IMG/VR virus record: IMGVR_UViG_3300022226_000018
Location: 1-26,059 of that record
Strand: one strand, 5' to 3'
Length of the DNA: 26,059 nucleotides
Origin: a virus
The notes beneath the pieces were generated by a model. It was not told the DNA's origin, made no database searches, and saw only the letters and a program-made list of their open reading frames with translations. Below are positions 1,714 through 26,059 of this stretch, piece after piece (positions within the stretch are counted from its first letter, which is position 1; every line of letters starts with the position of its first letter). Position numbers and translations under genes: made by a program.

Positions 1714-4700
1714 CTATGGCTGCGTCCACGTTGCGATCCGCCCAACCGTCATCCAGTTTGTTCCGTCGCTGCTGATGATGGTCATCAGATCTCCGGAAGT
1801 CCCCGGCGAAACGATCGCCTGCCCGGCCGTGCCCTGCGTCCCGTCCAACGTGATGTAATCAGCGGCGTTCGGATCGATGGTCGTGGTGAACGCGCCAACG
1901 GTCTGGAACGTCGCGCTGTGCCCGTCGGTGGTGACGTTGGCCAGCGTCTGCGTGGTTGTGCCGGTAAGAAAGATCATGGCGCCAGTCAAATCCGAGGCAA
2001 GCCATGTCTTGTTCGTGGCAACGGTGAACACCTTCACGAGCGCGGTCAGGTCGCCGTCGATCCCGACTGCTCCGGTCGCGCCGATCGTCCCATTGACCTG
2101 CAATGCGGCATCCTGCGGCCCGCTGGTGATCGTGACGGTATTGGCCGACTCGACGATATTGATCCGCACCCCGCCGCCGCCCGGTCCCGCGCTGTCAACG
2201 TCACCGATGGCAACCTGGAGATTACCGGTCGCGCTGCCGGTCGTGGTGAACACGGAATTCGTCAACGTGTCCTGAACCGTCAATGTGTTCACGATGGTCA
2301 TCGGCCCGCTCACGGTGACGTTGCTATTCACCGTCAAATTGTTGTCGATAGTCAACGGCGTCAGCACCGTATTGGGCACATCGTTTTCCCTGTCAGCGCC
2401 AGATACAAAAATCCGGCCAGTCGAAGCATGCGACCTGATTACGGTTCCCATCTTTTGTATGATGGTCCCGGCTGCGGTCGGCCTAACGTTCGTTAGCGAT
2501 CCGGATGCAACGTACAATGAATCGCTGATAGCCCAAGGGCTTGTATCTACGGTCTCTAACGATCCACCGCTCACTGCGTATCCGTTGTTGTTGTTATTGA
2601 TGTCCGCCTCGGCAATGCCGATAGCCGGCATGTTCGTGGCAACCGTAGAGTCGGCCGGGATCACGTTAACAAAATCGCCCGTGATATCCTTTGCCGTGAC
2701 TGGCGTGCCCTTGGTGATTGTGGATCCGGAAACATTCCTGACGTGAACAAGCGCCAGCTCGGACCGATCCACCACGTTGTCAAAGTCCGCATCGTAGGTC
2801 TGGCTCAGGCCGACGAAGTTGGTCGCCTGGATCGTCGTGCCTGTCGCTGTCCCGGTGATCGTCAGGTTGCTCGACATGCTGGCATTCGCCGCGAAGATCA
2901 CGTTGCTACCGGTCGCCCCGAAAGTGAGATCCGACCCACTCGGAGGGGAAATCACCTGCGCCTGGAGTTGCGAGACTGAGAGGACGAACGTGTCCGCGCC
3001 GTTGATGCTGCCGCCAGTCATCACGGTCCAGTTGGTGACGTAGATGTTCGCCGCGTTGGTGATGTCGTTGCCGGCCAAGTTATGATCGTTCGTGGAAGCC
3101 CGACTGTCCACCGGGTCGCCCGATGCCGCCGTGTTGACGATCCATTTGAAATTCGTGCCATCTGGAGAACTGATGATGTAATCCGCCGTGTGCGCATTGG
3201 TCGGAAAGGAGATCGCAGTGCTCGGCGCGCTGGTCCACCAGTTGCCGCCTGGGAGATCGGTCAGCGAGGCGCCGCTGCCGGCAAACGCGGTCGCCGTCAC
3301 CGTGCCGGTTATCGTGATCACGGATCCGGTCGTGAGCGTGAGGACGTTGGCTACCTCGTTATCCGCCCACGGGTTTGCGGTGTTCACCCAGTCCGAAGAG
3401 ATCGTCTCCGCCTCGTTGAGCATGGCCGCGTTAACCGCGATGTCCTTGCCGTCCACCGTGCCACTCGTGACGATATTCCCCACGCTACCAATATTGTTCG
3501 TTCCGAGAAAAAGAGGCTTTGTCATCTCGGTCAGGGAATCCGGATAGAGAATGATGTGTGCATTTACTGACGCGTTCACATCAGGGATGATGGTGTTGGT
3601 CGTATAGCCGATATACATACGATTCGATGCGCCACCAGCCCCAGACTTCGTTCTGCTGATGTACCAATCGTCATTCCGTGTCGTCCCGCTATGATCCCGC
3701 AATCCGATTACACTGCCCCATGTTCCGGTCGAATCGGACGACACAATAAACGCCGCCTCGGAACCCTCGATGTTGACTTGTACATCTTGACTGGCGTGAA
3801 TGTGAACGCCATCCGGAAATACGGGAAAGCTATCAGTAGTAGTGCCTGGCGCAAGAAATCGAGCGTTATGCGGCAGCATCGTTCCCCAGACTTCCATCCC
3901 TAAACGAGATCCAACCGAACGCCCCGGCCCACCAATCTGCACTAGCCGCGAGGTCGTGATTAAAAACGGCATGTTGACGATGGAAGTCCCCGCGCTATTC
4001 GCCGAGTTGACGTCTATCGCGAATTGGCCGTCGTGCGTGCTGTTGGTCTGCGCGAGGTGAAGAAATGCCGAATGCCCGAACTCGCTGGTGTTGCTCTTGA
4101 GGTTCATGAGTTCTAGGAATGATCCGTGCGCGCCCTCGTACTCGCTGATAATCGCCAGCCCGGCATCTTCGCCCACGATGATCGGGACCGCGTACTTAGT
4201 GCCCCGCACGCCCGTGTCGATGACGTTGGTCGCCGCCAGCACAGCGCCGGTCCACGCGCGCCCGCGGATGATCAGCGGCGACGATGCGATGTACTCAAAC
4301 GAGTTGGAACCAATCGTAACGGATTCCAAGTTGGTCAACGCGTATTGAGCCGCGTTCACTTGCCCGGTCCACGGAGTGAGGACTGCTGTCGCGCTGACAC
4401 CCGTCAAACTTGACCCATCCCCGGCGAAGACCGCGTTTGAAATTGTGTACCCGCCGGCGTTCATGTTGCCCTCCAACGTGTCGCCGGCCACAACATAAAA
4501 TGGAGCCGTCAACGCCACGGTCCCGGAGTAGGCCACATTGGTCGAACGCGGCGAATAGCGGATGATGGCAGCGCTGCTGGCAATGGCGCCGATATTCGTC
4601 GAGCCGATAGACACGTCCGCCAAGCTCACATATGTGCCCGTGGAAGCGTTGCTGGCTTCCGGCGTGAGTGTAAAGCGTACATGACCATCGGACGCGTTCA

Positions 4701-5557: not shown

Positions 5558-6342
5558 TACGTGGCTACCCAGTTGGTCTCGTTACGGAAAGCAATTGTCT
5601 CGCGAATCTTGTCCGTGCCTTGTTCGAGCAACGTAACGTCATGAGAAATGCAGTTGAACCCGGAAAAGCCAATGTAAACGCGTCCACGCAAAGGGTATGA
5701 CAAATCCCTGGGACGGACTCTGACCTTGCCTGCAAAAGACGATATCACACCGGATGGGTAATTATTCCCGACTTTAGAATTGAATTTCGTCATATCATGA
5801 AGAACGCGAAAAATGGTGTAATAATTTACAATCCTGTGCTGTTCTTCCGTTGGGTCTTCCGGGTTCTGACGATACTCGATGGCGACCGATTCCCCGACAT
5901 AAACCCATTCAGTTGCTCCGTTATTGGAAGATCCACCGAGCGCATTAATCTGACTGGCAAATGAGGATGTTTTCCAGTCGGTGTGCATCCGGAAAGTCTG
6001 CGTCTCTTTGAAGAAATTCGTTCCTTGTTCTTGCGCAATCAGATCATGCGAAACGCAAAAAAAACTATTTTCAAACGCGGGAACTTGCGAAGTACCGAGT
6101 TGAGTAGGCGTTAATTCCCTCGTTCCTGTTTTGGATTTGATGTTGACCTGGGCGAAGTTCTTCGCGGTATCATTGTTGAAGATAGTCGAGCTGTTGACTT
6201 GCTGGCCGTTACGGAATCGAGAGTACAAGTTGACAAAGCGGATCTGTTCTTCCAGCGTGTTCACCGGGTTCTGTCGGTACTCAATGTTGACCGTCTCGCC
6301 GATATAGATCCAGCCAGTTTCTTGTGAGAAAATTGACGCCAT
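5557..6342 (-). CDS. Tail protein made of two tandem copies of one domain
   Basis: The 261 residues contain two related halves, about 10-124 and 145-258. Paired motifs run in the same order: WIYIGETVNIEYRQNP and WVYVGESVAIEYRQNP, EEQIRFVNLYSRFR and EEQHRIVNYYTIFR, FFCVSHDLIAQEQGT and FNCISHDVTLLEQGT, then KETQTFRMHTDW and RETIAFRNETNW. An Asn/Gly linker (GGSSNNG, about residues 136-142) joins them. It starts two bases after the tape measure stop, the place where distal tail or tail-hub proteins usually lie, and a duplicated domain could build a pseudo-hexameric ring from a trimer. The duplication is direct observation; the distal tail role is inference. Confidence 0.75.
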   Translation of the reverse strand: MASIFSQETGWIYIGETVNIEYRQNPVNTLEEQIRFVNLYSRFRNGQQVNSSTIFNNDTAKNFAQVNIKSKTGTRELTPTQLGTSQVPAFENSFFCVSHDLIAQEQGTNFFKETQTFRMHTDWKTSSFASQINALGGSSNNGATEWVYVGESVAIEYRQNPEDPTEEQHRIVNYYTIFRVLHDMTKFNSKVGNNYPSGVISSFAGKVRVRPRDLSYPLRGRVYIGFSGFNCISHDVTLLEQGTDKIRETIAFRNETNWVAT

Positions 6343-6344
6343 GA

Positions 6345-7565
6345 TCAGCCCCGGAATCCGACTTCAGGCGGTTTGACTTCCTGAACAAAAAGCGGCTCGT
6401 TCTGGCTGCTGCCTAATCGCATTTCTGCACGATTATGATTCTTACCGACGATGCTTCCTTGTGACGCTGCTATTCCTGCCGCCGGAGATGGCAACGGCAG
6501 AGGACCCGCAATAGGTAGGTTCCGAAATCGCGCATCCTGCACTGCGGCGGAAGAAACAGGAAACTTTTCCGCAATCACATCGCCAGTGAATCGGACAAGC
6601 TTGCCAGGCAATGAAAGCAAAAGATCGAATATTCCCTTGGCAAAATTCTTGCCGGCTTCCGTCGCTGCGACTTTCAACGAATCATTGACCCCGTCAAATG
6701 TCGGCGTGACCTTCTCCAGCCATGCAATCAACTCCTCGGCGCCCTTGGCCAGTCGATCCCCAAATTTCCCAATCTTGCCCGATCCGATCAGCGAGTTGAG
6801 CGCATCGGTCGCTTGGGTCAACACTTTCGATGCCACCGGGAGCAACCGCTGGCCGATGGTCGCGAACGCTTCTTTGACCGTGTCCTTGAACGTCGTCCAC
6901 TTGCCCAGGATCGTCTGTGACGCCTTCTCTAACGAGCCCCCGAACTTGGTGCTGAAGATGTCCGTTAGTGCTTCCCTGGCCTCTTCTGCGCCCTTTGCAA
7001 CCACCTCTAATGCCTTGCCTGCCTTGTCCCTGAACTGGAACCGGAATTCATCCCCGGTTTTACGCAACTGGATGCCAAACCGCTTCAACGTCTCGCCCTC
7101 CAAACTGGCCACGGCGAGCGCCACATCTTCCACACTGCGGCCCATGACCGATGCCACTTCGGCAACCTGACGCAAGTTCTCTTGGCTGGCCGCGCCCACC
7201 GACGTGAGCAAGATCTCCGCTTTCACCAAGTCATCGAGGTTCAGCGGCGTGGATGCCGCGAACTTTCGGATCTCCTTGAACCGCTTCTCGGCGAGGACCG
7301 CGGACCCACTGACCGCCTCCAGCCGGAGCTTCAGCGTCTCGAATTCCGACGCGGCCCGGATACTGTTCTTGATCAGGAGGCCGATGCCGCCGGCCGTTGC
7401 GGTCGCGACGATTGCATTCTTCAAACTGAAGAACGACTTGGAGATCTTGCCGATCAACCCGGCGCCCTTTTCGCTAAACGTCTTCAGCCCACGCGAGAGC
7501 TTGCTCAGGCCCGCGCTGAATTCATCCTTCAGCCGGATGGTGATCTTTACGACCTTATTAGGCAT
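6345..7565 (-). CDS. Tail tape measure protein (short)
   Basis: The 406-residue protein starts with VVKITIRLKDEFSAGLSKL, the typical amphipathic beginning of tape measure proteins, followed by SRGLKTFSEKGAG and a hydrophobic segment around residues 45-67 (AIVATATAGGIGLLIKN). The central SASEF/LRLEAVSGS, KFAASTP and LDDLVKAEILL region and the VASLEGETLKRFGI segment are characteristic of tape measure domains in short siphoviruses. Length sets tail length by the usual rule of about 0.15 nm per residue, so a tail near 60 nm is predicted. Its start overlaps the stop of the preceding gene by eight bases, as expected after a tail assembly chaperone. No lytic domain is visible. Confidence 0.85.
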   Translation of the reverse strand: MPNKVVKITIRLKDEFSAGLSKLSRGLKTFSEKGAGLIGKISKSFFSLKNAIVATATAGGIGLLIKNSIRAASEFETLKLRLEAVSGSAVLAEKRFKEIRKFAASTPLNLDDLVKAEILLTSVGAASQENLRQVAEVASVMGRSVEDVALAVASLEGETLKRFGIQLRKTGDEFRFQFRDKAGKALEVVAKGAEEAREALTDIFSTKFGGSLEKASQTILGKWTTFKDTVKEAFATIGQRLLPVASKVLTQATDALNSLIGSGKIGKFGDRLAKGAEELIAWLEKVTPTFDGVNDSLKVAATEAGKNFAKGIFDLLLSLPGKLVRFTGDVIAEKFPVSSAAVQDARFRNLPIAGPLPLPSPAAGIAASQGSIVGKNHNRAEMRLGSSQNEPLFVQEVKPPEVGFRG

Positions 7566-16891: not shown

Positions 16892-17995
16892 ATGCCGCCG
16901 GTCAAAATCTCCGATTCCATCGTAATCGAGCCCGGCGATTGTCTCGACGTCCTGCCCACCATGGACCCGGAGTCCGTTGACGCGATCATCACCGATCCGC
17001 CATACGGCCTCTCCTTCATGGGCAAGGACTGGGACCACGGCATACCCGGCCCTGCATTCTGGCAAGCCGCCCTCCGCGTCGCCAAACCCGGCGCCCACCT
17101 CCTCGCTTTCGGAGGCACTCGCACCCACCACCGCCTCATGTGCGCCATCGAGGACGCCGGCTGGGAAATCCGCGATTGCATTATGTGGGTCTACGCCAGC
17201 GGATTCCCGAAGTCGCTCGACGTGGGCAAGGCCATCGACAAGGCCGCCGGCGCAGAACGGGAAGTGATGGGACCATCTCCGCACTCTGCAAATCGAAAAC
17301 CAAAAATTGACGGCGTTTACCATGACATGAACGTTGAAGCTCAACGCACTGTCACCGCACCCGCCACGCCAGACGCCGCCAAGTGGAACGGCTGGGGAAC
17401 CGCCCTAAAACCCGCTTACGAGCCCATCGTCCTCGCGCGCAAGCCCATACAAGGAACCGTCGCCGCAAACGTCCTACAGCACGGTACAGGCGCGATCAAC
17501 GTGGACGGGGGAAGGATCGGGACAAGCAGCACACCGCGAAAAGACCCACGCAATGGAAAACTGAGAAAAGCACACATGGAAATAAGCCCATGGATGAAAC
17601 GGCGCATCGAAACCGGCGAACCGTTAAAAAAAGACTTTGACGGCACACAAGGCCGCTGGCCCGCCAATTTCATCCACGACGGATCCGACGAAGTGCTGGA
17701 GGGGTTCCCGACAGATGCGGCACGGTATTTCTACTGCGCCAAAACCTCCGTATCCGAGCGCGACGACGCAGACCACCCCACCATCAAACCCGTCGCCCTG
17801 ATGCGCTACCTCGTCCGCCTCATCACTCCCCCGGGCGGCCTCGTGCTCGATCCGTTCATGGGATCCGGCTCCACCGCCATCGCCGCGTATGAGGAAGGCA
17901 CCCGCTTCCACGGCGTCGAAATGGACCCCGACAACTTCAACGAAGCCAGGCGCCGCATCAACGATGCCACCCGCCAGATGCTCTTCGCGTTCTAA
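16892..17995 (+). CDS. DNA methyltransferase, beta class (N6-adenine or N4-cytosine)
   Basis: The 367-residue enzyme has the motif order of beta-class amino-methyltransferases: catalytic motif IV DPPY at residues 35-38 (IITDPPYGLSFMGKDW), then a variable target-recognition region, and the AdoMet-binding motif I DPFMGSGST at 320-328 near the C-terminus, after the PTIKPVALMRYLVRLI helix. DPPY suits N6-adenine or N4-cytosine transfer using S-adenosylmethionine. No restriction gene is near, so it is an orphan phage enzyme, likely protecting phage DNA from host restriction or altering packaging or expression. Its target is unknown. It shares the plus-strand block with the portal and has no clear ribosome site. 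Confidence 0.87.
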   Translation: MPPVKISDSIVIEPGDCLDVLPTMDPESVDAIITDPPYGLSFMGKDWDHGIPGPAFWQAALRVAKPGAHLLAFGGTRTHHRLMCAIEDAGWEIRDCIMWVYASGFPKSLDVGKAIDKAAGAEREVMGPSPHSANRKPKIDGVYHDMNVEAQRTVTAPATPDAAKWNGWGTALKPAYEPIVLARKPIQGTVAANVLQHGTGAINVDGGRIGTSSTPRKDPRNGKLRKAHMEISPWMKRRIETGEPLKKDFDGTQGRWPANFIHDGSDEVLEGFPTDAARYFYCAKTSVSERDDADHPTIKPVALMRYLVRLITPPGGLVLDPFMGSGSTAIAAYEEGTRFHGVEMDPDNFNEARRRINDATRQMLFAF

Positions 17996-19168: not shown

Positions 19169-20563
19169 CTATGCCCCCGCAATCAACACACTCCCTACCC
19201 GCCTGTCCAACTCCGCCACCAAGTACCTCAACGCATCCATCGCATGATCATCCTTGCCCACAGGTTTGTCCCCCTCGCGGTCCCATACATACGATTCAAT
19301 CTCACTCAGTAACCCAGGACACCCATACCTATGCGCGCGATCAGGACGCACAAAAAGCAACCGCCCCTCTTGCAATCTCTTTTTCACCCTGGCAAGGCCA
19401 TCGCGAATAGGACGATCCTTCCACGCCGGCCGCGTCACCACTCCTCCTCGCCTCAACGTCGCCGCATCCTCAGCATCATGATCACATACCGTATACCAAA
19501 CCGTATTCACCTTCGACCGCTCCATGATGTCGCCAGCATGATCAGAAACAATCCGCCCAGTACGATATATTTCATCGTACACGATAAGTCGTCCATCCCA
19601 GTCAACCCCCGCGAAAAGGCATACGAAAGGATCCCGGTAACCAAAGTCAATCGACCGATAACACGCCTTCCCCAAAAACGTACCCGTACTTATTTCCATG
19701 CAGTCTTTTGCTTCAATGACTGAACATTCAGTGAACTCACTGTACACCGCACCCTGATCCGCTACCCACTCCCCGTAAAGCATCCGCCGCTTCGTGATCT
19801 CATCCTGATCCTCGTAAGTCTGCAACGCATCACTCGCCAAATTCCCCGCATTGTCCGAGATCGTCCAACCTCCCAATCGCCCCCACTTCTGTCTGGCTTG
19901 TAACGGCTCGCCAGTTGCAGGATGCACCCCCAATACCCCAACCCGATACAACCAATGCCGAGGCCCTCGAGGGTTAGTATCGAACACCGCCTTGCACAAT
20001 CCCTCATCACCTCGCTCATCCACTCCCCTCTGCACCAACCGCGACATCAACTGCTCCACCACCTCCCATGGAAACTCCGACGCCTCATTAAACCATACCG
20101 TCATATACTCATTCCCATACAACTTCCTCACCCGCGCCTCATCATCACACCCATCAAAAAGGATCCGGCTGTTGTTAAACGGAAAGTGAATCATCAACTC
20201 ATCCCGCTTCAGTACCCAATACCGCTGATCCGGCCAATGCTTACTCAGGTAATCAAAAAACGTCCCATTCCATAACGACTGCACACAATGCGATCTAGCC
20301 TTGCGCAGGACCACATGCCAACTCCCAGGATACCGCGCCGCCCTGCTCAATAACCAATGCCCCAGCATCGCCGTCTTCCCACTGCGCCCACCTCCATCAA
20401 AGAGTAAACGCGTGCAAGTTCCCTCCAATAACGTGAGCCCCTCCAACTGCTTCTCACTCGGTACCCACGGCCCAATCACTCGCCGCTCCGTCTCATTACC
20501 TCGCGCAGGCGCCGCTCGTGCTACCCCAGGATCCTGACGTAAATTCTCACCTCGCTCCGCCAT
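19169..20563 (-). CDS. terL: Terminase large subunit
   Basis: The 464-residue protein (ATG 20563) has all motor and nuclease motifs of TerL. Walker A is GGGRSGKT (residues 57-64), Walker B is VWFNE (156-160), the coupling motif region is FDTNPRG (194-200), and the nuclease acidic residues appear in SIDFGYRDP (304-312), DHDAED (361-366) and the C-terminal KDDHAMDALRY (437-447). Together with TerS and the portal it pumps DNA into the head using ATP and cuts at each headful or cos site. The ATG has only a weak GAG upstream. The 217-base gap to TerS is longer than usual, as these genes commonly overlap. Confidence 0.9.
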   Translation of the reverse strand: MAERGENLRQDPGVARAAPARGNETERRVIGPWVPSEKQLEGLTLLEGTCTRLLFDGGGRSGKTAMLGHWLLSRAARYPGSWHVVLRKARSHCVQSLWNGTFFDYLSKHWPDQRYWVLKRDELMIHFPFNNSRILFDGCDDEARVRKLYGNEYMTVWFNEASEFPWEVVEQLMSRLVQRGVDERGDEGLCKAVFDTNPRGPRHWLYRVGVLGVHPATGEPLQARQKWGRLGGWTISDNAGNLASDALQTYEDQDEITKRRMLYGEWVADQGAVYSEFTECSVIEAKDCMEISTGTFLGKACYRSIDFGYRDPFVCLFAGVDWDGRLIVYDEIYRTGRIVSDHAGDIMERSKVNTVWYTVCDHDAEDAATLRRGGVVTRPAWKDRPIRDGLARVKKRLQEGRLLFVRPDRAHRYGCPGLLSEIESYVWDREGDKPVGKDDHAMDALRYLVAELDRRVGSVLIAGA

Positions 20564-20610
20564 CAATTAAACTCAATCTCTACGTTGTAACTCCGTTTCA
20601 ACATCTCTCC

Positions 20611-20629
20611 GTTGCAATATCGTTGTAAC
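20611..20629. promoter_or_regulatory. Imperfect 19-base dyad, possible operator
   Basis: Arms GTTGCAA and TTGTAAC around a five-base centre match at six of seven positions. It lies about 50 bases upstream of the terL start in the transcript direction, a fitting place for an operator. Function is unproven. Confidence 0.35.
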
Positions 20630-20664
20630 TGCTAGTTAAACCAGAAAAATGCGAGAGTAGATGC

Positions 20665-20699
20665 GGGGGGTGGGGGGTCGGGATATGGCCGGGGGGGGG
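20665..20699 (+). other. G-tract cluster, potential quadruplex
   Basis: The plus strand carries G6 (20665-20670), G6 (20672-20677), G3 (20680-20682) and G9 (20691-20699) within 35 bases, enough for a four-tract G-quadruplex with loops of one, two and eight bases. The minus strand, which is the coding strand of both terminase genes, is correspondingly C-rich. Long G runs can also be hard to sequence correctly. Confidence 0.5.
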
Positions 20700-20725
20700 T
20701 CGAACGGTGCCCCCTTACTAGATTA

Positions 20726-20761
20726 TCACACGTCGCATAATACTTATTATGCGAACTGTGA
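20726..20761. promoter_or_regulatory. Long inverted repeat with ten-base and five-base arms
   Basis: TCGCATAATA (20733-20742) and TATTATGCGA (20745-20754) are perfect complements around CT. Outside a two-by-two mismatch, TCACA (20726-20730) pairs with TGTGA (20757-20761), so 15 base pairs surround a centre at 20743.5. It lies 20-55 bases past the TerS stop. The stem is AT-rich and no T run follows on the minus strand, which argues for a protein-binding site over a terminator. Confidence 0.55.
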
Positions 20762-20780
20762 CACGCTTTGTAAGTGGCTA

Positions 20781-21269
20781 TCACTGGCCAGCTTCCACCG
20801 ATTCAACGTCGATGGTCTCCGTTATTGGGTCATTGTGAGCGGTCGTGGGTGTCATTGGTAGGGCGCGTGACCCACCGTTATCGCCGGCGTCGAGGCACTC
20901 AATTTCGACCGCCTGGGGTAGCACGAACGTCGGAGGGGGAAGCTGCTGTAACTCTATCCGGCTAGTCTCTAGGCCCCACCCATTCATCTTGATCAGGTGT
21001 CCCATCCATACGCCGGAATCCTTGCCCCCTTGCCGCAGGTTAGTCCAACAGATGTTGCGCGCCTCATCAATGTCACCTTGGCGTTGCTCCAAGTTGGTTA
21101 AACTTAGTCTAGCCAGCTCTGTAGCGACGTCTGCACGCTTTAATAGCCTAGCACCTGTTGTACCTGCGCTCCTTTTGGTATAGCCGGCCTTCACGGCGGC
21201 CTTGGTGGCATTGCGGCAGTGGAAGAACTCGAGGGCGAAAGCTTTGTGCTGGTCCTTGATGCCTGGCAT
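20781..21269 (-). CDS. terS: Terminase small subunit
   Basis: The 162-residue protein opens with KDQHKAFALEFFHCRNATKAAVKAGY and a helix-turn-helix (about residues 20-44, NATKAAVKAGYTKRSAGTTGARLLK), the classic Terminase_2 N-terminus. Helices with ELARLSLTNLEQRQGDIDEA follow, and then a Pro- and Glu-rich tail. It recognises phage DNA and recruits TerL. The ATG (21269) lacks a ribosome site. Unlike in most phages, a 217-base gap with dyads and G-tracts separates it from terL, and the repeat-rich region lies upstream. Confidence 0.82.
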   Translation of the reverse strand: MPGIKDQHKAFALEFFHCRNATKAAVKAGYTKRSAGTTGARLLKRADVATELARLSLTNLEQRQGDIDEARNICWTNLRQGGKDSGVWMGHLIKMNGWGLETSRIELQQLPPPTFVLPQAVEIECLDAGDNGGSRALPMTPTTAHNDPITETIDVESVEAGQ

Positions 21270-21327
21270 GGTGATTGTTTGGATGCGTTAACGAGAATTG
21301 GTAATGGAGTCAAGCATGTAATTTTCG

Positions 21328-21363
21328 GCCTCATTGTGACCTCAGTGCCTCATTGCCTCTGTG
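21328..21363. repeat. Left iteron cluster, consensus GCCTCAKTG
   Basis: Units are GCCTCATTG (21328-21336), ACCTCAGTG (21339-21347), GCCTCATTG (21347-21355) and GCCTCTGTG (21355-21363). The last three have an eight-base period. They are in the opposite orientation to the cluster at 21492. Confidence 0.6.
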
Positions 21364-21410
21364 CAATCGAGAGTATTACATAGAGAATACGCCCCTTGCC
21401 GGCCTCTATT

Positions 21411-21444
21411 TATGTTCACTATGTTCAATATACGTATTACGTAT
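21411..21444. repeat. AT-rich core with two tandem repeats
   Basis: TATGTTCAC (21411-21419) is followed at once by TATGTTCAA (21420-21428), then TACGTAT (21431-21437) by TACGTAT (21438-21444). The surroundings are the most AT-rich stretch of the window, fitting an unwinding element between two iteron clusters. Confidence 0.5.
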
Positions 21445-21491
21445 TGCAATATACTATAGATAACACCTCTTTTACGTGGATCTTCCAAGTG

Positions 21492-21516
21492 CACTGAGGT
21501 ATTGAGGTATTGAGGC
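21492..21516. repeat. Right iteron cluster, inverted relative to the left one
   Basis: CACTGAGGT (21492-21500), ATTGAGGT (21501-21508) and ATTGAGGC (21509-21516) repeat with an eight-base period and are the reverse complement type of the left cluster. A partial ATTGAG follows at 21532. Confidence 0.6.
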
Positions 21517-21570
21517 TAGGGGCATTCCAGTATTGAGAATTTGTTGCAGAAACGAGACTGACTCACACTT

Positions 21571-21599
21571 GCCTCACTGGAATTGTCCCGCACTGAGGC
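21571..21599. repeat. Facing pair of iteron units
   Basis: GCCTCACTG (21571-21579) and CACTGAGGC (21591-21599) face each other with eleven bases between them, giving a nearly complete inverted repeat just past the primase-helicase stop. Confidence 0.55.
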
Positions 21600-21635
21600 A
21601 GAAAAAAGATGGGACAATTGAAGCGTACTCTTGTT

Positions 21636-23960
21636 TTATTTGACACTTGCGATACCGTTTCTATCAATTACGATAATATCTACAAGGTATTGATGTTCCG
21701 GAACGTAATACTTTGAACGGAGCATGACGCCTCGATATCGTCGGCCTTTGTTTTTTGACGTTGGAAATTGAGGAATATCGAATGACCAACCTGGGAGCAT
21801 GCCCATTTTAGCCCAGTTGTGGGTAAAGTGTTTCACGCCTCGCCCGAATTTTCCGCCTAGTCCTGGCAGCACCTCACGCGCCCACAAGACGAGCACATCG
21901 GACGTAAGCCAGACCGGGGAATTTTCGGTAATGCCTAGGTTTTTCAGGTTTTGTTCGACATTAGTGTTCACCACTTCGGCATCGACGATTTCTTGATCTG
22001 AGGATTCTCTACGTTCGATCATGAGTTTATGACAATCGTTGAATACTTCTTCATCGGTGATCATTGTGGCCATGACGTTGGTTTCCCATGCACGGAATCG
22101 AGATTGTGTCATGACTATCCAAGTGGAACCGGCGACGATCGCGGCTTTGATATCGGCGAGGATTTGCCAGCGGTTTTGATTGATGAAAGCGCGGACTTCG
22201 GCGAGCCAATCGGCGGTTGCGGAGTCATCTCGGCTGACTGAGATCATCATTGACCTGGAAATCAGATCGCGGTCCAGCGTTGCGGAATTGCTTGTAAGGC
22301 AAAATGTTAGGTCGTTTTCCCTGGTGATCTCGTTTCTGGCGTAGGGGGCAAGGCCCGAGATATGGGCACTTGTGGCCATTGTGGCGAGGGTCGAGCTTTT
22401 GAAGAAGCCGGTGACGTTATCGAGCATGAATATCCGTTTACCGAGGGCGCCATCGGTCAGGAGGGTTCTCATCATGCGGTCGTGATCGCGTTCGTTGGTG
22501 AGCGATGTGGCGTCCACATAGAGGGGCGTAGAATTGTACAGGAAGGCCAGCAGCTCGATGAGCTTGGTCTTGCCCGACGCCTGGCCGGTATCACTGTCCA
22601 CGATCCATATGGGGCGATCAGCGTTGGCATCGTAGAACATGGGGCTGGCGAAGAGGACGCGCAGGAGCAGGCCGTCTTCCAACTCAGTAGGGCAGAAGTA
22701 GGACATCAGCTTATAGAATGCCTTACGGTCGGGGTCCGCTGGCGGTAGATCGGGATGATCAAAAAAAACGTTGTGGCGCTCGGGGACGAATGGGGCGGCT
22801 GCGACGTTGCCGAATTTGTGGGCGGACTGGATGAGTTTTTCGTATACGGCGCGCCAGCCGCTACAGCCGATGGTACGGCCTGGGGGCTCGAATTTGGGTT
22901 GCTCGTGGCTAAGACCGGCAACCCAGGCCTCCAACGCGCCCGGCGATCTGAGCATTGTAACCTTGCCCTGGCGGTAGTCGAAGAGGCTGTCCCCGAGCAT
23001 CATGGGGAAGCCGTCGAACGATTTTCGGATATGGTCCACGATGGCGTTGATGTGGAGGGGTTCCTTGACCTCCTTTTTCTTCCCGCCGCCGGTTTCGACC
23101 TCGAGGATGCGGTAGTTCTTGATTGCGATGAAGCGTTTTCGGTCCTCCGCGGCGGCGATTAGTGCTTCAAGATCGGCTTTTGTGCCGCCCACCTTGATCC
23201 AGTCGGACACATCGGCGCCCTTTGCCGGGAGGCCGAGGTCCACGACGCGCATGGACTTTGCGACACAAAGTGATTTGTTCTGGATGGCATTGACGAAGAC
23301 ACGGCCGGCGTCGTCGTTATCGGGTATGACTACTAAGTCTTTGCCTTCGAGCCATTTGTTGTAGCTGGCGCGCCAGTTGGCCTCGCCCATGGGGCAGGTT
23401 GTGGCTGCAAATCCGAGATTCCATAGCTGATCTGCATCCTTTTCGCCGCCGACCACACAGATCTGCGCCGCGTCCTTCCAGTCGTCCACGCGGTAGAGGA
23501 CGCGGTCCACGTTGCCGAGGCCGTTGATGAACTGGCCGGGATTATCGGGGTCCGGGCGCCGTTGGAAGAAGCGTTTGGGCTTCATGCGCACGGTTTGGTG
23601 TACGATGGAACCCCCCGACTTGTAGTCGTAGACGCAGTCGATGCACTCGGCTTGTCGGGTTTTTTGCTCTAGGTGTAGCCAGCGGCCGAGGATGATCTGA
23701 GCGGAGTGGAAGTCGCAGTTGTTGCCGGCCATGGCGAGGGAGATGACGTCGCCCTTTTCGCCGGATACGTGGTCGTGCCAGTGGTCGCGAACGGCGTTGA
23801 GAGCGCCCGAATTCGCGCCAGGACGCCACGGGTTGTCAAAAGACGTGTATTGGCCCGACTTGCCCCGCTCGGTGGCTCTTAGCTCATTTCTGAGGTATTC
23901 GCGGCAATCGGCGTTGTGTTTGATTTCATCCCGGCAATAGGTCTCCTTGAAATCGTCCAT
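21636..23960 (-). CDS. Primase-helicase with TOPRIM and D5/SF3-like AAA+ domain
   Basis: The 774-residue enzyme begins with ATG 23960, preceded by GGGAG, and overlaps the RecD-like gene by 35 bases. The N-terminal 95 residues look like a degenerate CHC2 primase zinc domain, with FDNPW, GEKGDVISLA and HSAQIILGRWL. The TOPRIM domain has GEKD (172-175) and PDNDDAG (213-219). The helicase part carries a variant P-loop TGQASGKT (458-465) with Thr replacing the first Gly, Walker B FMLDN (511-515), sensor LTSN (555-558) and RDLISRS with an arginine around 569. It would prime and unwind DNA at the phage fork. TOPRIM primase with a D5-type motor instead of a DnaB-type motor is known in mobile elements and phages. 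The repeat-rich gap follows its stop. Confidence 0.8.
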   Translation of the reverse strand: MDDFKETYCRDEIKHNADCREYLRNELRATERGKSGQYTSFDNPWRPGANSGALNAVRDHWHDHVSGEKGDVISLAMAGNNCDFHSAQIILGRWLHLEQKTRQAECIDCVYDYKSGGSIVHQTVRMKPKRFFQRRPDPDNPGQFINGLGNVDRVLYRVDDWKDAAQICVVGGEKDADQLWNLGFAATTCPMGEANWRASYNKWLEGKDLVVIPDNDDAGRVFVNAIQNKSLCVAKSMRVVDLGLPAKGADVSDWIKVGGTKADLEALIAAAEDRKRFIAIKNYRILEVETGGGKKKEVKEPLHINAIVDHIRKSFDGFPMMLGDSLFDYRQGKVTMLRSPGALEAWVAGLSHEQPKFEPPGRTIGCSGWRAVYEKLIQSAHKFGNVAAAPFVPERHNVFFDHPDLPPADPDRKAFYKLMSYFCPTELEDGLLLRVLFASPMFYDANADRPIWIVDSDTGQASGKTKLIELLAFLYNSTPLYVDATSLTNERDHDRMMRTLLTDGALGKRIFMLDNVTGFFKSSTLATMATSAHISGLAPYARNEITRENDLTFCLTSNSATLDRDLISRSMMISVSRDDSATADWLAEVRAFINQNRWQILADIKAAIVAGSTWIVMTQSRFRAWETNVMATMITDEEVFNDCHKLMIERRESSDQEIVDAEVVNTNVEQNLKNLGITENSPVWLTSDVLVLWAREVLPGLGGKFGRGVKHFTHNWAKMGMLPGWSFDIPQFPTSKNKGRRYRGVMLRSKYYVPEHQYLVDIIVIDRNGIASVK

Positions 23961-25095: not shown

Positions 25096-25320
25096 TCAAT
25101 GAAGTTTCCATTTCAGCGGATCTTCTGCCTTGTGCCCGGTGCGCGTGCCGAGTTTCAGGCCGTACAGATCGCCGGGATCCTTCACGAAGATTTGGATGAC
25201 GCCGTCCTCGTACTCGTGGATGAGGACGTCATACTCGTTGATGTTGGCGCCTTCTGGAGTGATCGTGTTTCGCGTGACCTTGCGATGCGGGTGGAAGACG
25301 TGGACGATCTTGGCGTTCAT
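25096..25320 (-). CDS. Small protein of unknown function before the helicase
   Basis: The 74 residues read MNAKIVHVFHPHRKVTRNTI with a central INEYDVLIHEYEDGVIQIFVKDPGDLYGLKLG, beta-rich and rather acidic, and end KAEDPLKWKLH. A related start, MKAKIIH, opens a truncated frame at 25937, so this gene belongs to a duplicated unit. Its upstream sequence is part of the 127-base repeat and includes GGGAAGTG before the ATG. Family unknown. Confidence 0.6.
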   Translation of the reverse strand: MNAKIVHVFHPHRKVTRNTITPEGANINEYDVLIHEYEDGVIQIFVKDPGDLYGLKLGTRTGHKAEDPLKWKLH

Positions 25321-25442
25321 GCGATTTCACTTCCCAAGTGTACATTTCCTAACTGCGATCTCCGGGCCCGTCCCATGACGCCGGCATATGCCGGTCCGGG
25401 TGGATGATCCGGGCCCACTTTTCAGGCTCGTCTTTATCCATG
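25316..25442. repeat. 127-base direct repeat, internal copy
   Basis: This is identical to the last 127 bases of the window (25933-26059), 617 bases away. It spans the 3' end of the 172-residue gene, the gap after it and the first bases of the 74-residue gene. It includes CCGGCATATGCCGG, a 14-base palindrome. Similarity continues imperfectly into the small gene's start at its left side, so homology is wider than the exact match. Confidence 0.85.
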
Positions 25443-25867: not shown

Positions 25868-25937
25868 CCCTGGGTCCAATCCATTTCAATGTCCTCTTCG
25901 TCCAGCTCTTCATCTCGTGAATGATCTTAGCTTTCAT
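25857..25937 (-). pseudogene. Truncated paralogue of the 74-residue gene
   Basis: The frame starts MKAKIIHEMKSWTKRT, matching MNAKIVH of the gene at 25320 over the first seven codons with mostly silent or mild differences (18 of 22 bases match), and then departs. The overlapping frame two bases on reads SRDEELDEEDIEMDWTQG and ends in a TGA coupled by ATGA to the 172-residue gene, so an acidic C-terminus may have been joined to a foreign start by deletion, frameshift or misassembly. Confidence 0.4.
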
Positions 25938-26059
25938 GCGATTTCACTTCCCAAGTGTACATTTCCTAACTGCGATCTCCGGGCCCGTCCCATGACGCCG
26001 GCATATGCCGGTCCGGGTGGATGATCCGGGCCCACTTTTCAGGCTCGTCTTTATCCATG
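25933..26059. repeat. 127-base direct repeat, copy at the right edge
   Basis: This exact copy of 25316-25442 stops at the window edge. It carries the last codons of a second copy of the accessory gene and the start of the truncated paralogue. Its length equals a common assembly word size, so the edge may be set by the assembler at a real repeat. Confidence 0.85.
25966..26059 (-). CDS. 3' end of a second copy of the accessory gene (partial)
   Basis: The visible frame ends DKDEPEKWARIIHPDRHM and PASWDGPGDRS then stop, identical to the C-terminus of the gene at 25349. The rest is beyond the window, so whether it is a complete second gene or a fragment cannot be judged. Confidence 0.55.
   Translation of the reverse strand, partial: MDKDEPEKWARIIHPDRHMPASWDGPGDRS

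Follow-up and report, generated by a model that had tools for sequence, protein, structure and literature searches.

A putative iteron-type replication origin beside the primase-helicase gene of an uncultivated tailed phage

PICI origins are located immediately 3′ of rep, and two iteron sets always flank their AT-rich region; no other known bacterial replicon was reported to be organised in this two-set manner (PMC6092414). SaPI Rep uses its C-terminal domain, apparently as two hexamers, to recognise iterons that lie downstream of the rep gene, and the C-terminal domain of Cch2 reads its repeats like SaPI Rep (PMC7581432). In the P4 alpha protein, a winged-helix domain binds the origin repeats (PMC4234260).

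The analysis covered the full 26,059 bases (the window) of an IMG/VR virus record that is listed as linear. Its late block encodes the portal, minor capsid, tape measure, TerL and TerS proteins, and the right-hand part codes for a primase-helicase of the TOPRIM type and for a RecD-like helicase. The ORF map leaves a gap of 366 bp (21270–21635) between the 3′-end of the primase-helicase gene (21636–23960, 774 aa) and the start of terS (20781–21269; Pfam Terminase_2, E = 2.8e-11), with both genes on the − strand. The primase-helicase, our proposed initiator, matched phrog_239 (E = 3.6e-18) at residues 108–271, the TOPRIM region; a weak AAA match at residues 462–570 was below the cut-off, and Walker-like motifs are visible in the sequence. 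At the right end of the window, a 144-bp direct repeat (97% near-identical copies at 25299–25442 and 25916–26059) has its second copy finishing exactly at the contig end, which is probably the point where assembly stopped.

As in PICIs and SaPIs, the gap is directly 3′ of the proposed replication-initiator gene in the window and in two relatives (L005 and L006, below), two short iteron sets surround an AT-rich region in the window, and terS can follow the initiator in the same direction. In contrast, the window is a phage with portal, capsid, tail, TerL and TerS genes rather than a satellite, and its primase is of the TOPRIM type, whereas those of SaPIbov1 and SaPI5 are of the archaeo-eukaryotic type. 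Phage P4 is a satellite whose origin is split into ori and crr, and it differs in this from the window, which was compared with P4 by description. The likeness to P4 alpha would lie in a single TOPRIM primase-helicase with a C-terminal DNA-binding domain (predicted in the window) acting on origin repeats (PMC4234260, PMC6092414). SCCmec Cch2, a self-loading helicase, is similar in that its C-terminal domain binds direct repeats situated downstream of the helicase gene, but Cch2 belongs to a mobile cassette with 5-nt repeats and a separate primase (PMC7581432). By analogy, the window origin would work like a PICI or P4 origin with a putative binder, and we do not class it as a PICI.

Repeat sets and the AT-rich core

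The sequence-only reading had placed at 21328–21599 about ten repeat units in 272 bases, with eight-base periods and in opposite orientation on the two sides of an AT-rich core. The coordinates hold, with all six exact matches to CCTCANTG in the whole 26-kb window falling within 21329–21598. With up to one mismatch, 10 places were found in 265 bp, against a maximum of 4 per equal stretch elsewhere in the contig. They are at 21329, 21340, 21348, 21356, 21572 and 21588 on the + strand and at 21492, 21500, 21508 and 21591 on the − strand; those at 21588 and 21591 overlap, so that the count of about ten becomes 9 separate units. The best families in the gap with one mismatch (a 9-mer with n = 7 and an 8-mer with n = 8) were reached in 0 of 300 dinucleotide shuffles of the gap, where the maxima were 4 and 5.

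The inner sets are opposed, with four + units on the left (CCTCATTG, CCTCAGTG, CCTCATTG, CCTCTGTG; 21329–21363) and three − units on the right (CACTGAGG, TATTGAGG, TATTGAGG as read on the + strand; 21492–21515). An 8-bp period is exact within both (21340/21348/21356 and 21492/21500/21508), but the first left unit, at 21329, is spaced 11 bases from the next. The claimed opposite orientation is likewise limited to the inner sets, since the outer units at 21572 (+, CCTCACTG) and 21591 (− unit, CACTGAGG) form an inverted pair of their own (21572–21598). An inverted repeat, AATTGTCCC / GGGACAATT (21581–21619), surrounds the outermost unit. An automatic search for opposed clusters (one mismatch) missed the window's own array because the right units differ at two positions, and it was left out of the evidence.

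The AT-rich core (21372–21490, 36% GC) is a candidate unwinding element in the stability profile, and the 100 bp of lowest stability in the contig (21404–21503) are between the two repeat sets. Both of the further tandem repeats expected in the core are present at 21411–21445, with two copies each of TATGTTCAM (21411–21431) and TACGTAT (21431–21445); two such tandems occurred in 9 of 1000 core shuffles, which is modestly unusual. No DnaA box (TTWTNCACA) was found within 21201–21700, so this feature of a DnaA-dependent origin is lacking, and a scan of the proposed origin region detected no IHF consensus site. Rfam gave 0 matches within 20500–21700.

The gap is upstream of terS and could contain its promoter, and regularly spaced, clustered sites do occur in operators. 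The array might accordingly serve the terS-late operon as an operator or promoter array, to which a repressor or an activator (for example the 170-aa HTH protein) would bind. The scan of 21270–21635 gave no sigma-70-like promoter at its threshold, however, and we consider this explanation unlikely, also in the light of the relatives described below.

The same interval in relatives and in other phages

Relatives were collected via TerL: L005 (91% identical), L007 (91%, a contig that begins inside terL) and L006 (73%). The gene order primase-helicase, gap, terS and terL is common to L005 and L006. Absence of the units in close relatives had been named beforehand as a result that would speak against an origin. 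The literal CCTCANTG-type unit is indeed absent from L006, with one stray copy in L005 and none in the gap of either, but the layout at the same place is kept. The L005 gap contains five exact copies of TGGCCCCG (shuffle maximum, 3), and the L006 gap four exact copies of TGGGCCAT (shuffle maximum, 3) together with GGGCCATTG units; the L006 8-mer family with one mismatch was not significant (reached by 23 of 300 shuffles). The least stable 100 bp of each contig starts at 1542 (L005) and 6204 (L006), in both cases between the primase-helicase gene and terS, and is flanked by the repeat sets as in the window. In L006 the majority of the units are on one side of the core, and the other side has a GGCCAAT-type unit. 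All five L005 units point in the same direction, so the opposed orientation of the sets is not conserved.

As judged from these alignments and counts, the architecture is conserved among the window, L005 and L006, and the repeat word is not. The search for the literal unit in relatives was dropped as a test for an origin because relatives keep the layout but differ in the word. An operator would not be expected to combine a melting minimum with a two-set layout at one shared position in three phages.

The relatives differ from the window in gene content around this interval. Between its array and terS, L005 carries an HNH-type endonuclease ORF (1581–2066); another inserted ORF (2764–3573) separates its terS from terL, and the window has neither. 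In L006, a perfect 29-nt direct repeat (6073–6101 and 7098–7126) flanks terS, one copy being in the array gap. The N6/N4-type DNA methylase gene of the window (16892–17995, + strand) had no tblastn match in L005, L006 or L007, where its neighbours match.

Third-codon GC skew, read on the + strand, was +0.41 for the primase gene, +0.45 for the RecD-like gene, ∼0 for terS and −0.65 for terL, all four being − strand genes. The portal and methylase genes, on the + strand, have negative third-codon skew like their neighbours. The skew sign switch therefore places a leading-strand change between terL and the primase gene, and the sign switches in the same interval in L005 and L006. The minimum of the cumulative skew is a plateau of ∼1.4 kb (about 20.6–22.0 kb) that includes the array, with no point minimum there.

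Iterons can serve in partition and copy control, and the array could on that ground be a site for partition or incompatibility in a plasmid-like phage, either parS-like or made up of copy-control iterons. The direct neighbour of the array is a replication enzyme, however, and no ParA/ParB-like gene was detected among the proteins searched in a record that may be a fragment; we regard this explanation as highly improbable.

An alignment-based primase search gave two distant contigs, L013 and L017 (∼37% identity); a single-sequence primase scan of viral contigs and an alignment scan of genome contigs returned no match. The L017 contig ends ∼100 bp past the primase gene and was left out of the array comparison. 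L013 has no array after its primase gene. At 1093–1230, ∼7 kb upstream of that gene and at the start of a replication/recombination block, three GTCACCCAC units face three inverted copies across a 76-nt core; this opposed array is possibly an origin or an operator. Clusters of high-copy 8-mers at 450–850 and 3150–4020 of L013 were rejected as arrays, being low-complexity coding repeats. Two small ORFs of L013 (3272–3529 and 3789–4040) consist nearly entirely of glycine-rich repeats and start with MELLMPMDxYGCGFGFGSG.

Among cultivated phages, Rhizobium phage RHph_Y3_1 (L026) has eight exact copies of CGTTCCCA in the gap that immediately follows the 3′-end of its TOPRIM primase/helicase gene. 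It differs from the window in that the helicase part is AAA_25, RSF1010 RepA-like, and the gap is not a local melting minimum, and its array is probably convergent or only partly related. None of the four other cultivated phages inspected, all with distant primase/helicases, has such an array 3′ of the primase/helicase gene: the 3′ gap of Salinibacter M1EM-1 is without a significant array, and those of Arthrobacter Rizwana, Gordonia Smoothie and Microcystis Mae-JY30 (3–81 bp) are too short for one. With arrays in the window, L005, L006 and RHph_Y3_1, the arrangement is therefore recurrent and not universal.

Candidate reader of the repeats

The C-terminal domain of the primase-helicase (residues 661–774; 21636–21980, − strand) is proposed to bind the iterons. 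The identity between the window and L005 proteins is 83% over the AAA+ core (431–585), 59% over residues 586–660 and 46% over residues 661–774. Nearly all shared proteins of this pair are 82–97% identical (TerS, 87%; TerL, 91%; capsid, 97%; HTH protein, 82%). The C-terminus is no closer in this pair than between the window and L006 (59% over 586–660 and 48% over 661–774), although the neighbouring proteins are all far closer in the first pair. Similarity between the window and L005 DNA fades at 21966, within the C-terminal coding region, and picks up again at 21270, one base ahead of the terS start codon.

The full-length model of the primase-helicase was poor (mean pLDDT 46), and the C-terminal model alone was used. 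The latter is confident, with a pLDDT of ∼90 for the final 120 residues, and its elements follow a winged-helix-like order; structure comparison gave no significant fold match. The primase-helicase had no sequence relative among the solved structures of the PDB, SaPI Rep included.

The array might alternatively be a packaging site. Sites of the pac and cos classes are often near terS, and TerS would here bind a site of the pac or cosB type beside its own gene, directly upstream of it. With a conserved TerS, a conserved site would be expected, yet the window and L005 arrays are unrelated and share no unit while TerS is 87% identical (83% over its N-terminal 60 residues). The non-coding block between terS and terL (20692–20752), which carries GGGGGTCGA and the invariant ACGTCGCATAATAC in the window, L005 and L006, is a better candidate for packaging, and such a role for the array seems improbable. 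The 82% identity of the HTH protein, set against unrelated arrays, likewise weakens the terS operator array, which had been the main alternative of the sequence-only reading.

The comparison points to the primase-helicase, rather than TerS or the HTH protein, as the candidate binder of the array, because its C-terminus diverges together with the array while the other two proteins stay 87% and 82% identical. Joint divergence of this kind is what a C-terminal domain that reads the units would be expected to show. A single recombination tract over the two adjacent parts could give the same pattern without functional coupling, and for this reason the coupling is only inferred.

Proposed origin and its implications

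We propose, with a probability of about 0.7, that 21270–21635 is an iteron-type replication origin of a tailed phage, bound by the C-terminal domain of the primase-helicase. The C-terminal domain would bind the units of its own phage on both sides, and the primase-helicase would form a pair of helicase rings at the AT-rich core. The rings would then melt the core and unwind outward, with the TOPRIM domain priming. The domain and the units, being adjacent and needing to match, would change together, which may explain the turnover of the repeat word.

These data suggest that (i) the original claim of a replication origin with an initiator is partly borne out, by the same place, layout, melting minimum and skew switch in relatives and by the co-diverging primase C-terminus; and (ii) among the readings, comparison gives the best support to an origin that the primase-helicase recognises. 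More tentatively, the iteron word and the matching C-terminal domain of a PICI-like origin may form one cassette that close relatives exchange or evolve anew; a single phage group would then contain several origin-specificity types (incompatibility groups), and phage origins might be linked to those of satellites.

The layout is found here beside a TOPRIM primase-helicase, in phages that are uncultivated and carry a full set of virion genes. If the proposal is confirmed, close relatives would supply natural pairings of an origin word with its binding domain, giving access to a recognition code of self-loading primase-helicases, and a melting minimum combined with a repeat specific to the genome, both 3′ of the primase-helicase gene, would serve as an origin finder for uncultivated phages.
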